Origin: Mesobaculum littorinae
GTDB lineage: Bacteria > Pseudomonadota > Alphaproteobacteria > Rhodobacterales > Rhodobacteraceae
Direction: 5' to 3'
Length of the DNA: 64,000 nucleotides
Assembly: GCF_004011175.1 (NCBI RefSeq)
Contig: NZ_RQXX01000002.1
Span: 620,001 to 684,000 of the forward strand
Both the position numbers and the translations under genes were made by a program. The notes under the pieces are model-generated. The model searched no databases. It was not told where the DNA came from and worked only from the letters and a program-made list of their open reading frames with translations. How positions within the stretch are numbered: the first letter of the stretch is position 1; every line of letters starts with the position of its first letter. Of this stretch, positions 35,451 through 53,017 are shown one piece after another.

Positions 35451-36962
35451 TCAGAGCCCGAGCTTGGCGTTGACCAGATCGTTGACGGCCTTGGGGTTCG
35501 CCTTGCCGCCCGTGGCCTTCATCACCTGGCCCACGAACCAACCGGCCAGCTTGGGATTCTGCTGGGCCTTTTCGACCTGCGAGGGGTTGGCGGCGATGAT
35601 CTCGTCGACCGCGGCCTCGATCGCGCCGGTGTCGGTCACCTGCTTCATGCCGCGCGCTTCGACGATCTGCGCCGGATCGCCGCCCTCGGTCCACAGGATC
35701 TCGAACAGGTCCTTGGCGATCTTGCCGGAAATCTCGTCCCGTCCCAGAAGGTCGAGCATGCCGCCCAGCTGCGCGGCCGAGACGGGGCTTTCCGAAACCT
35801 TGAGATCGTCCTTCTTCAGCCGGCCGAAGAGTTCGTTGATGACCCAGTTCGCCGCGACCTTGCCGTCGCGTCCGGCGGCGACCTCTTCGAAGAACACCGC
35901 GTTCTCGACCTCGGCCGTCAGGACGCTGGCGTCGTATTCGGTCATCCCGTAGTCCAGCACGAAGCGCGCGCGCTTTTCGTCGGGAAGCTCGGGCAGGGTG
36001 GCGGCGATGTCGTCGACCCAGGCCTGCTCGATCTCAAGAGGCAGCAGGTCGGGGTCGGGGAAGTAGCGGTAATCCTGCGCCTCTTCCTTCGACCGCATCG
36101 AGCGCGTCTCGCCCTTGTCGGGGTCGTAAAGCCGGGTCTCCTGTTCGACCTTGCCGCCGTCCTCGAGGATGGCGATCTGGCGCCGTGCCTCGTAGTCGAT
36201 CGCCGCCTGGATGAAGCGCATCGAGTTCATGTTCTTGATCTCGCACCGCGTGCCCAGGTGCGAGAAGTCGCCGGTTTCGACGAAGCGCTCGTAATCCCCC
36301 GGTCGGCAGACGCTGACATTGACGTCGGCGCGCAGGTTGCCGTTCTGCATGTTGCCATCGCAGGTGCCGAGATAGCGCAGGATCTGGCGCAGCTTGCCCA
36401 CGTAGGCCGCCGCCTCTTCGGGGCCGCGGATGTCGGGGCGGCTGACGATCTCCATCAACGCGACGCCCGCGCGGTTGAGATCGACGAAGGACGCCGCCGG
36501 ATCCATGTCGTGGATCGACTTGCCCGCGTCCTGTTCAAGGTGGATGCGTTCGATCCGCACCCGCCGCGCGATGCCGGGCGCCATGTCGACCAGCACCTCG
36601 CCCTCGCCCACGATGGGGTGGTAGAGCTGGCTGATCTGGTAGCCCGCGGGCTGGTCGGGATAGAAATAGTTCTTCCGGTCGAAGGCCGAGTAGAGGTTGA
36701 TCGCCGCCTTCAGCCCCAGCCCGGTCTTCACCGCCAGCGCGACGCAGCCCTCGTTGATCACGGGCAGCATCCCCGGCATGCCCGCGTCCACGAACGCGAC
36801 GTTCGAGTTCGGTTCGGCCCCGAATTCGGTCGAGGCGCCCGAAAACAGCTTGGCCTTGCTGGAGACCTGGGCGTGGACTTCCAGCCCGATGACCAGTTCC
36901 CAGTCCTCTTTCGCGCCCTGAATGACCTTCGGTTTCGGGGCCTCGTAGGTAAGATCGAGCAT
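35451..36962 (-). CDS. gatB: Asp/Glu-tRNA(Asn/Gln) amidotransferase subunit B
   Basis: 503 residues, full length. [36 protein letters not shown] and [19 protein letters not shown] (the cradle domain motifs) are intact, and a C-terminal tail domain ([17 protein letters not shown]) is present. With GatA and GatC it amidates Glu-tRNA(Gln) and Asp-tRNA(Asn). gatA and gatC are not in this window. Divergent from the lysozyme-like lipoprotein gene. Confidence 0.97.
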
Positions 36963-49766: not shown

Positions 49767-50465
49767 CTAGTGCGCGGCCGTCTGATTGTGGCGGCGGGCG
49801 ATGAAGGTCTTCGCCGTTTCGACCGCCACGGCGGCGTCGCGGCAATAGGCATCGGCACCGATGGCGCGGCCGAATTCCTCGTTCAGGGGCGCGCCGCCCA
49901 CCAGCACGATATAATCGTCGCGGATCCCCTGCTCCTTCATCGCGTCGATCACGACCTTCATGTAGGGCATCGTCGTCGTCAGCAGCGCCGACATGCCGAG
50001 GATATCGGCCTCCTCGGCCTTGATCGCCTCGAGGTACTTTTCGACCGCGTTGTTGATGCCCAGATCGACCACCTCGAACCCGGCGCCCTCCATCATCATG
50101 CCGACGAGGTTCTTGCCGATGTCATGAATGTCGCCCTTGACCGTGCCGATCACCATCTTGCCCATCTTCGGCGCGCCGGTTTCGGCCAGCAGGGGTTTGA
50201 GGATCGCCATCCCGCCCTTCATCGCGTTGGCGGCCAGCAGGACCTCGGGCACGAACAGGATGCCGTCGCGAAAATCGGCGCCGACGATCGTCATCCCCGC
50301 GACCAGCGCCCGGGTCAGCACATCGTAAGGCGCCCAGCCGCGGTCCAGAAGGATCTGCACGGCCTCCTCGATCTCGTCCTTGAGACCGTCGTAGAGGTCG
50401 TCGTGCATCTGTTGGACAAGCTCGTCGTCGTCCAGTTCGCTCAGGATGATGTCGTCGTCGGCCAT
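49767..50465 (-). CDS. corrinoid (B12-binding) protein, probable methionine synthase or methyltransferase subunit
   Basis: 232 residues. The N-terminal helical cap domain (about 20-105) is followed by a cobalamin Rossmann domain with the DxHxxG signature in KGDIHDIGKNLVGMMM and a later VGGAPLNEEF. Such stand-alone proteins carry methyl-cobalamin between methyltransferases. In several Rhodobacteraceae methionine synthase is split into separate polypeptides and a protein of this type supplies the B12 part, which is the most likely role here. The alternative is methylamine-type methyl transfer. ATG 50465 has GGAGG upstream. No methyltransferase partner adjoins it. Confidence 0.88.
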   Translation of the reverse strand: MADDDIILSELDDDELVQQMHDDLYDGLKDEIEEAVQILLDRGWAPYDVLTRALVAGMTIVGADFRDGILFVPEVLLAANAMKGGMAILKPLLAETGAPKMGKMVIGTVKGDIHDIGKNLVGMMMEGAGFEVVDLGINNAVEKYLEAIKAEEADILGMSALLTTTMPYMKVVIDAMKEQGIRDDYIVLVGGAPLNEEFGRAIGADAYCRDAAVAVETAKTFIARRHNQTAAH

Positions 50466-50673: not shown

Positions 50674-50688
50674 GTTCTATATACGTTC
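50674..50688 (+). promoter_or_regulatory. LexA-type SOS box (GTTC-N7-GTTC)
   Basis: GTTCTATATACGTTC at 50674-50688 fits exactly the direct-repeat operator GTTC-N7-GTTC bound by LexA in Rhodobacter and other alphaproteobacteria. The TATATAC spacer could double as a -10 region. It ends 12 bases before the start of the radical SAM gene, so bound LexA would block its promoter. Confidence 0.7.
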
Positions 50689-50700
50689 TAGCGTCGCAAC

Positions 50701-51783
50701 ATGGAAACGGGTGACAGAATCGATGCCGGACGGCGGCCCGGGCGCGGCGCGGGGGCAAACCCGGCGGGTCGGTTCGAACCCTATGCCCGGCTCCGCGAAC
50801 CCGACGGCTGGGAGATCGAGGAAGAGCTGCCGCCGTTGCGGACCGAGGTGCGCGTCGAACGCCCCCGCCGGGTGGTGACCCGAAACGACAGTCCCGACCT
50901 GGGCTTCGACCGGTCGATCAATCCCTATCGCGGCTGCGAACACGGGTGCATCTACTGTTTTGCGCGGCCCGGTCACGGCTATCTGGGCATGTCGTCGGGC
51001 CTCGACTTCGAAACCCGGCTCATTGCCCGCCCGACCGCGCCCGCACGCCTCGCGGAAGAGCTGGCGCAGCCGCGCTACCGCGTCGCGCCGATCGCGATCG
51101 GCACCAACACCGATCCCTACCAGCCGATCGAGCGTGACAACCGGATCATGCGCGGCCTGCTCGAGGTCTTGCGCGATTTCCGGCATCCCGTGACCGTGGT
51201 GACCAAGGGAACGCTGATCGAACGCGATATCGACCTGCTGGCCGAGATGGCCGCCGACGGACTGGCGAGCGTCGGCGTGTCGATCACCACGCTCGACCCC
51301 GATCTGGGCCGCAGGATGGAGCCCCGGGTTCCCGCACCACACCGCCGCCTCAAGACGGTCGCCCGACTGACCGAGGCGGGGATCCCCGTGCGTGTCATGG
51401 TTTCGCCCGTCGTGCCCGGTCTGACCGATCAAGAGATCGAGGCGATACTTGCCGCGGCCCGCGATGCCGGCGCCCGTGCGGCCAGCTGGATCATGCTGCG
51501 CCTGCCGCATGAGGTCGCGCCCTTGTTCGAGGACTGGCTTGCCGAGCATTATCCCGACCGTCGCGACAAGGTACTGCGGCGCCTGCGCGAGATGCATGGC
51601 GGCAAGCTCTACGAGGCGCGGTTCGGCCATCGCATGCGGGGCGAGGGGATCCACGCCCGGATGATTGCCGAGCGTTTCGACCTGGCCGCCCGGCGGCTGG
51701 GGCTCGACGGTCCGATGCCGGGGTTGCGCACCAATCTCTTTCGTGTGCCGCCGCGGGTGGGCGATCAGCTGACGCTGTTCTGA
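50701..51783 (+). CDS. PA0069-type radical SAM protein (SplB-like)
   Basis: 360 residues. The radical SAM cluster motif is CEHGCIYC (Cys79, Cys83, Cys86), preceded by INPYRG and followed by FARPGHGYLGMSSGLDFE, diagnostic for the PA0069/Rv2578c subfamily, a relative of spore photoproduct lyase. TNTDPYQPIER and VTKGTLIERDIDLL follow in the barrel. Reaction unknown. The start at 50701 is favoured by the SOS box immediately upstream; damage induction is inferred from it. No partner gene in tandem. Confidence 0.9.
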   Translation: METGDRIDAGRRPGRGAGANPAGRFEPYARLREPDGWEIEEELPPLRTEVRVERPRRVVTRNDSPDLGFDRSINPYRGCEHGCIYCFARPGHGYLGMSSGLDFETRLIARPTAPARLAEELAQPRYRVAPIAIGTNTDPYQPIERDNRIMRGLLEVLRDFRHPVTVVTKGTLIERDIDLLAEMAADGLASVGVSITTLDPDLGRRMEPRVPAPHRRLKTVARLTEAGIPVRVMVSPVVPGLTDQEIEAILAAARDAGARAASWIMLRLPHEVAPLFEDWLAEHYPDRRDKVLRRLREMHGGKLYEARFGHRMRGEGIHARMIAERFDLAARRLGLDGPMPGLRTNLFRVPPRVGDQLTLF

Positions 51784-51876: not shown

Positions 51877-52560
51877 TCAGAGGTCGCCCGCCAGGCGCAG
51901 AAATTCGCTTCCGGCCTCGTCGTTGCGAAAGAAGGGCACCGTCGCCGGGGCGGCGAGGTCGGGCAGCTGTGCCGCGACCTCGGCTAGGACGACCGAGGTG
52001 ATGAAGGGCAGATCGCGGTGGCGCGCCTCCTCGATCGGGACCCAGGCCAGATCGGACAATTCGTCGCCGGCGCGGGAGAAATCGTCGGGGTCGCCCGACA
52101 GGCCTGCCGCGTTGGCCACAAAGAAGCGCGCGTCGAACCGGCGCGGGCGGTCGGGCGGTGTCAGCGCGCGGAACACGAAGCGCAGGCCGCCCGGCGCGGG
52201 CAGATGCCCGGTCGCGGCAAAGCTGCGCCACGCCTCTGGCGGCGTCCCCAGCCACCGGTGCGGGCGCCCGAGGATCAGCCCGGTCTCTTCCCAGAGCTCG
52301 CGCACCGCGGCGGCGGCGAGCGTGGCGGGGGCGAGATGCCCGGCCTCTTCGGTCAGGCGTCGCGCGCAGATCCCGCTCATCGGGCGGGCCATCGGCACGC
52401 CCTTGTCCTCGGGCGACACGACGCCACCGGGAAAGACGTATTTTGCCGGCATGAAGGACGCCGCATCGGCCCGCCGTCCCATCAGCACGCGCGGCACCGG
52501 CCCCGCCGGATCGCGCAGGAGGATGATCGTTGCCGCGTCTTGCACCGCGTTTGCCGTCAT
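51877..52560 (-). CDS. NUDIX hydrolase
   Basis: 227 residues. ATIILLRDPAGPVPRVLMGRRA starts the fold. The Nudix box spans VFPGGVVSPEDKG to ALAAAAVRELWEETGL; the REL-EETG portion is canonical, with an insertion between the GG and the helix, as in the group related to NUDT8/NUDT19 CoA hydrolases. ATG 52560 is preferred because GGAG lies eight bases upstream; an in-frame ATG at 52629 overlaps the DUF983 gene by 11 bases and lacks a site. Probably co-transcribed with DUF983. Confidence 0.88.
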   Translation of the reverse strand: MTANAVQDAATIILLRDPAGPVPRVLMGRRADAASFMPAKYVFPGGVVSPEDKGVPMARPMSGICARRLTEEAGHLAPATLAAAAVRELWEETGLILGRPHRWLGTPPEAWRSFAATGHLPAPGGLRFVFRALTPPDRPRRFDARFFVANAAGLSGDPDDFSRAGDELSDLAWVPIEEARHRDLPFITSVVLAEVAAQLPDLAAPATVPFFRNDEAGSEFLRLAGDL

Positions 52561-52618
52561 TGCCTTTACTCCGGCCGCTGCGTCGGCTTCAGGCGACACC
52601 GCCGCGCGCCGCACGGGA

Positions 52619-53017
52619 TCAGAAACCATGCATCCGCCGCGCCCATTGGAAGCTCACCATCGACCCTTTTAGCCGTGGAAGCAGGTAGAGGGACAGCGCC
52701 ACCGAGCCCATCGCGAACAAGCTGAACAGCGTCGCGGGGGCAGGGCGGAAGGCGGTGAAATACCACAGCAACACCGGCGCCATGACGTGTCCGACGATCA
52801 GGATCGTCAGGTAGGCAGGCCCGTCGTCCGCACGTTGGCATGTGAAGTCCTGCCCGCAGACCGGGCAATGATCGCGCACCGTCAGGTATCCTTTCAGAAG
52901 CGGCCCGTGGCCGCAGGCCGGGCAGCACCGACGCCAACCGCGCCAAAGTGCCGTCGCAACCTCGCGGGGGGCGCGCGACGTGTCCGCGGCATCCGCTGCA
53001 AGGGGGTCGTCGTACAT
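52619..53017 (-). CDS. DUF983 membrane protein
   Basis: 132 residues. Two CxxC pairs (CCPACGHGPLL and HCPVCGQDFTC) form a probable zinc ribbon, followed by two membrane helices (about 68-110) and a short basic end. DUF983 proteins are common in alphaproteobacteria; function unknown, sometimes near cytochrome oxidase genes. ATG 53017 and GTG 53026 are both possible starts and neither has a strong ribosome binding site. Confidence 0.85.
   Translation of the reverse strand: MYDDPLAADAADTSRAPREVATALWRGWRRCCPACGHGPLLKGYLTVRDHCPVCGQDFTCQRADDGPAYLTILIVGHVMAPVLLWYFTAFRPAPATLFSLFAMGSVALSLYLLPRLKGSMVSFQWARRMHGF

Follow-up and report, generated by a model that had tools for sequence, protein, structure and literature searches.

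A predicted LexA-controlled radical SAM gene of the PA0069 family ending in a clamp-type peptide in Mesobaculum littorinae

Spore photoproduct lyase (SPL, SplB) is the described enzyme closest in fold to the protein analysed here. It requires a fourth cysteine as hydrogen donor, C141 in B. subtilis and C140 in Gt (accessible text of PMC3742179). Genes called splB have been connected with the SOS response before. Sanchez-Alberola et al. (2012, PMC3323433), in the available portion of their paper, compared genomes that included the alphaproteobacteria P. denitrificans, R. sphaeroides and S. meliloti. They predicted a LexA site for 'splB' in both alpha- and betaproteobacteria and stated that none was observed in gammaproteobacteria. 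According to an excerpt of a paper on the LexA of Bacteroidetes (PMC8565304), SplB (COG1533) is under SOS regulation in several species. For vnz_31145, an SPL-like radical SAM gene of S. venezuelae, the accessible text of PMC9380542 gives a ChIP peak of LexA and an expression raised 19.97-fold by mitomycin C; this gene offers an experimental parallel, and a parallel only, to the LexA control predicted below.

The gene described here belongs to the PA0069 family. In the literature searched we found no paper linking PA0069 to LexA and no reaction for the PA0069 or Rv2578c families, nor, judging by titles, any paper on the function of either. Cirz in 2006 reportedly counted PA0069 among the members of the LexA regulon of P. 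aeruginosa. The available parts of a Caulobacter repair-gene paper (PMC1839093) and of a Brucella alkylation paper (PMC6813329) contain neither 'radical SAM' nor the photoproduct or photolyase term looked for in each.

The LexA-type operator and its conservation

The window is the whole 64-kb stretch of M. littorinae DNA that was analysed. As the original prediction had stated, it contains an exact LexA-type box of the form GTTC-N7-GTTC, GTTCTATATACGTTC, at 50674–50688 on the + strand and at promoter distance from a radical SAM gene. The gene encodes 360 amino acid residues and occupies 50701–51783 on the + strand, stop included; relative to its ATG at 50701 the box spans −27 to −13, ending 12 bases ahead of the start codon. 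The PA0069-type identity was confirmed with the NF033668 rSAM_PA0069 model, typed as a hypothetical equivalog, against which the protein scored 506.8 bits (cut-off 360) over the full model length (positions 2–348 of 348); Pfam Radical_SAM (PF04055) was matched as well. A divergent gene for a B12-binding corrinoid protein (49770–50465, − strand), which scored below the MtgC/MtbC model cut-offs, has the intergenic region in common with the radical SAM gene and is unrelated to it in function. The convergent neighbour on the other side encodes a NUDIX protein (51880–52629).

It had also been argued that a window of this size should hold few such matches by chance, and this argument proved weak. 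Exact GTTCN7GTTC occurred three times in the window against 1.21 expected, a number reached by 9 of 100 shuffles, and 93 times in the whole genome against 55 for a reversed control pattern. Such frequencies would allow the box to be a chance match with no function. What sets it beyond chance is its conservation together with the extended motif. We searched 149 genomes of the same family, of which 110 had a match, and examined 104 loci on the sense strand, from 250 bases before the beginning of the match to 60 bases past it. Six matched genomes were left out: the matches of G003 and G019 were weak, those of G022, G108 and G147 were fragments, and that of G054 lay close to the end of a contig. 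The exact box was found upstream in 97 of the 104 orthologues (dinucleotide shuffles, mean 0.8), while half-sites with spacers of 4, 5, 6, 8, 9 or 10 bases were found in 0–3 of them. Five of the seven loci lacking the exact form (L065, L083, L104, L113 and L134) have a box with one mismatch, one (L084) is truncated where its contig ends, and one (L086) has no near box upstream. The original prediction had made the presence of the box upstream of orthologues in other Rhodobacterales its test, and there the box is. A chance box without function was rejected on this conservation and on the spacing controls, and we regard it as having almost no likelihood. In 39 of the 149 family genomes there was no PA0069 match at all, so the enzyme is dispensable.

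Beyond the family, 108 of 192 genomes of the class set matched; 70 loci were examined and 69 counted, L245 being left out as a member of the own family. The exact box lay within a narrow search range in 53 of these 69 loci from other alphaproteobacterial families. Several of the remaining 16 have one further upstream, and the start codon at those loci may lie further upstream too. Another 27 of 29 alphaproteobacterial loci carried the exact box; these were the best-scoring ones of a phylum draw (150 of 299 genomes matched) and lean on two families. Among the named genomes GTTCN7GTTC stood upstream in 73 of 80. Because this alpha-form box precedes the PA0069 genes of Paracoccus denitrificans and Sinorhizobium meliloti, the 'splB' or COG1533 gene of the SOS papers is probably the PA0069 gene. 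The SOS link of the radical SAM gene is therefore not new, having been predicted in 2012 (PMC3323433).

Outside the Alphaproteobacteria the gene is preceded by boxes of other forms. Twenty loci of non-alpha Pseudomonadota were picked for spread over families before their promoters were viewed. The E. coli-type CTGTN8ACAG was found in 13 of the 20 (shuffles, 0.1) and was absent from seven, and GTTCN7GTTC was found in none. The Aeromonas caviae gene has the upstream box CTGTATATATAAACAG, a case not met in the literature searched; neither proteobacterial form was found at the gene of Methylomonas fluvii (L340), also a gammaproteobacterium. Upstream of the Streptomyces sp. BHT-5-2 gene lies GAACATGTGTTC, in the GAAC-N4-GTTC form that the available text of PMC3323433 gives for LexA of Gram-positive bacteria, and upstream of the Nonomuraea gene lies GAACTGCTGTTC. 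At the Tsukamurella and Arthrobacter genes, two of the four actinobacterial relatives, GAACN4GTTC was missing. On the whole, these promoters suggest that the gene retains a LexA-type site while the sequence of the site shifts with the LexA of the host.

A weight matrix was built from 96 orthologue boxes, with the window's own box excluded. It gave the window site a score of 25.2 and no other site in the window more than 9.4; the other two exact matches, at 36801 and 51209, scored below 8 each and were taken as chance. The score of the window site is not independent of its conservation, because the matrix was made from orthologues of the same gene; the scores of boxes at other genes are independent of that result. 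We scored 74 of the 93 genome boxes (71 taken with AT-rich spacers first, plus the three in the window) and left out 19. High scores were obtained for boxes at an imuA-like gene (21.3; gene 38.9 bits, below the model cut-off of 150), lexA (20.4; gene 186.7 bits, cut-off 110.95) and uvrA (18.9; gene incomplete, being truncated where the locus ends), and the recA box scored 13.5 (gene 575.5 bits, cut-off 325.3). The radical SAM gene thus has the GTTC-N7-GTTC operator in common with lexA and recA of its own genome. The placement in the SOS response was upheld by these boxes and by the 97 of 104 orthologues, and the predicted control of the radical SAM gene by LexA is strongly supported by sequence comparison.

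Other boxes of this genome were recorded alongside. An MmcB-like DNA repair gene (PF06319, L011:1501–1991) has a LexA-type box scoring 19.5, 11 bases ahead of its start codon. The box GTTCTATATATGTTC, scoring 21.1, stands ahead of a 138-aa frame (G000:C12, L141:1085–1515) whose match to the error-prone DNA polymerase DnaE2 is confined to roughly the final 100 residues of the polymerase; the frame may be what is left of a longer gene, or a domain standing alone behind an SOS box. The top box after the window's own, scoring 25.1 (G000:C1:510373, L012:1501–1515), closely follows a frame for a RecG-like helicase, and the frames scanned beyond it belong to no clear family, so that it possibly marks an SOS gene of new identity. 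Like it, the boxes L139 (17.9), L138 (13.3) and L018 (12.4) and a few more near a score of 11 are without a known SOS gene.

Fold, cysteines and C-terminal tail of the product

The predicted model of the window protein has a mean pLDDT of 91.7, falling to a mean of 67 for residues 351–360 and below 50 for residues 358–360. SPL was the best fold match by both programs (Foldseek E 6e-9). In the structural comparison 270 residues were aligned to 4fhf with a Z of 19.2 and an rmsd of 3.5, and the next kind of protein reached 15.2; SuiB, lipoyl synthase, NifB and SkfB followed with Z about 15. The window protein has the radical SAM core and fold in common with all SplB structures compared (PDB 4FHC, 4FHE, 4FHF, 4FHG, 4K9R and 4RH0; Z 18.6–19.2) at 12–13% identity. 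By sequence the kinship was not detected: no SPL model was among the NCBIfam matches of the protein at E≤0.001, and a PDB sequence search with the orthologue alignment gave no SPL in nine rows at E≤1. SkfB and NifB led that search, and its other rows look like chance.

The cluster motif CxxxCxxC is formed by C79, C83 and C86 (50935–50958, + strand) and is invariant in 49 of 49 aligned orthologues. These are the only three cysteines of the window protein, and the fourth, catalytic cysteine of SplB is lacking. Only three cysteines were also counted in 59 of 167 orthologues, from 80 residues ahead of the cluster onward. Since all its cysteines belong to the cluster, the window protein is SPL-like in fold and not an SPL by mechanism, and canonical SPL chemistry was rejected for want of the fourth cysteine. 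No description of this lack in the PA0069 family was met in the literature searched. The kinship to spore photoproduct lyase originally claimed therefore stood for the fold and fell for the chemistry.

The window protein differs from SplB further by an additional C-terminal tail, residues 340–360 (51718–51780, + strand), which lies beyond the SPL-aligned part (model residues 4–339 at most). Its last five residues, in the low-confidence end of the model, are QLTLF (51766–51780, + strand). This peptide, which the original prediction had overlooked, agrees with the consensus for binding of the DnaN β-sliding clamp, QL[S/D]LF or more generally QxxLF, which is expected in an accessible part of a protein and frequently at its C-terminus; QLSLPL is a tight-binding hexapeptide of the same kind (available text of PMC12309361 and PMC4549789). 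The alignment of 49 orthologues ends in QLxL[FL]. For a wider count we used 167 complete proteins (87 plus 80 from named genomes, overlapping species kept), and 126 loci with cut C-termini and ten passed over by the motif expression were left out. The strict form Q[LM]xL[FL] was present within the last 20 residues of 148 of the 167, as the last five in 137, and nowhere else in their 61,096 residues. The other tails comprised seven with a looser pentapeptide, seven of hexapeptide type, such as QLTLGL or QIALPF in place of the pentapeptide, and five near forms (QMSFL and QLSLI among them). The layout of the tail is nearly constant, with F at −14 in 134 of 137 orthologue tails.

The exact form QLxLF directly before a stop, searched on both strands of the 3.97-Mb genome and not counting internal or looser clamp motifs, was found at two sites only, the ends of the window gene and of a gene of the TIGR03916 family. 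A looser clamp form followed by a stop gave three extra genome sites, of which a 107-codon frame is the only long frame with a true stop; in the window, where 0.02 would be expected, this form occurs once, at the end of the window gene. We consider binding of the clamp by QLTLF a well-founded prediction. The peptide is new as far as the literature was searched, for in the open-access literature we found no radical SAM protein with a clamp-binding motif in print. It is also the best clue that the substrate would be DNA rather than RNA, two options that had been named side by side.

Explanations of the locus

We propose that the window gene is repressed by LexA and encodes a radical SAM enzyme that is tethered to the clamp and acts on a DNA lesion, and we think this account probably right. 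LexA bound to the box just ahead of the start codon would keep the gene off. Cleavage of LexA, triggered by RecA, would turn it on along with lexA, recA, uvrA and the imuA-like gene. The product would be a radical SAM enzyme with the SPL fold, whose C-terminal QLTLF may dock on the DnaN sliding clamp and so bring it to sites of replication or repair. There it could act on a base lesion with a 5′-deoxyadenosyl radical, reversing or editing it without the catalytic cysteine of SPL. The operator, its conservation, the boxes at SOS genes, the cluster motif and the clamp-type peptide on which the account is built were read from sequence, and the fold was predicted; LexA binding, induction, clamp binding and DNA as the substrate are the parts that we infer.

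The nearest alternative by fold is a true photoproduct lyase: induced by the SOS response, it would use the SPL mechanism to repair a thymine dimer, either spore photoproduct or a related one. The fold match, which takes in almost all of the core (Z 19.2, 270 residues aligned), and the conserved SOS box agree with this, and the idea was put forward under the name splB in the accessible part of PMC3323433. Such a lyase would nevertheless need the cysteine equivalent to C141 of B. subtilis (accessible text of PMC3742179), and the window protein has no cysteine beyond its three. The 59 orthologues in which the count over the stretch starting 80 residues ahead of the cluster also came to only three, and the lack of an NCBIfam SPL match at E≤0.001 argue against it too, and we hold it to be quite improbable. 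The folds ranked next, SuiB, lipoyl synthase, NifB and SkfB at Z about 15, and the stretches of SkfB and NifB that gave the best PDB sequence matches would instead fit an SOS-controlled modifier of protein or RNA (for instance of tRNA, of the clamp or of a polymerase bound to it), with a tail that only localises the enzyme. SPL, a DNA enzyme, is however clearly ahead of these in the fold comparison, and both the SOS box and the clamp-type peptide favour DNA; a modifier of this kind is unlikely.

It may also be asked whether QLxLF is a clamp tag at all, or a structural latch of the enzyme, in which case only the SOS control would be real. The nearly fixed spacing of the tail and the conserved F at −14 could reflect packing on the enzyme, and proteins of the TIGR03916 family end in a tail that resembles it, RFAPPPEQLALF in the genome of M. 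littorinae. Against a latch, residues 358–360 of the model have a pLDDT below 50, pentapeptide and hexapeptide forms swap for one another, and actinobacterial relatives retain QxxL[FL] after quite different linkers. We give the latch a small chance and prefer the clamp-tethered enzyme acting on DNA.

Related families and clamp-binding SOS proteins

The TIGR03916 family (rSAM_link_UDG), described as a putative DNA modification or repair radical SAM, is a different family from PA0069 and resembles the window protein in having both a LexA box and a clamp-type C-terminus. The gene of the own genome (G000:C19:121124–122341; L159, L375, L388) has a LexA box scoring 21.9, and its protein ends in QLALF. 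The family was present in 20 of 100 family genomes; 19 of these 20 have the box (18 antisense, 1 sense), and the 20 C-termini comprise 15 of the strict form Q[LM]xL[FL], four QLxLI and one QLSLAL.

The actinobacterial Rv2578c family (NF038135) is related in sequence, the window protein scoring 234 bits against its model, below the cut-off of 430; it is a distinct equivalog, and its C-terminal linker differs from that of the window protein. Four actinobacterial proteins, all above the Rv2578c cut-off, end in QLTLL, QESLF, QEPLF and QLRLL, that is, in QxxL[FL] in four of four, and two of the four genes have the GAACN4GTTC box. More distant relatives are less uniform. One from Gemmatimonadota, which reaches the cut-off of neither family, has QLSLGI as its end; of two from Clostridia, L409 has the tail EQLGF, which is no clamp form, and L408 reads only 81 aa before a stop. 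Phage-borne homologues were limited to three partial matches, all from faecal phage records that lack annotation and all with a coverage under 80%.

A LexA operator is combined with a terminal clamp-type peptide in at least two families, TIGR03916 and PA0069/Rv2578c, the latter being found in Proteobacteria and Actinobacteria. They could make up a class of radical SAM enzymes that are induced in the SOS response, travel with the replication clamp and reverse base lesions at the fork, a suggestion we make tentatively and hold to be nearly an even question. If it is true, the SOS response would have a direct-reversal arm that works by radical chemistry, is distinct from photolyase and SPL, and makes radical SAM direct reversal a replication-coupled part of the response. 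The SOS box would tell when the enzyme is needed and the clamp peptide suggests where it works, which together turn the question of its purpose into a directly testable one.

Pol IV, UmuC, DnaE2 and ImuB are clamp-binding proteins of the SOS response. They are damage-induced and carry a short DnaN motif of the QLxLF type, and in both respects the window protein, as predicted here, is like them. The difference lies in the activity, as these four are polymerases or their partners, whereas the window protein is a radical SAM enzyme.
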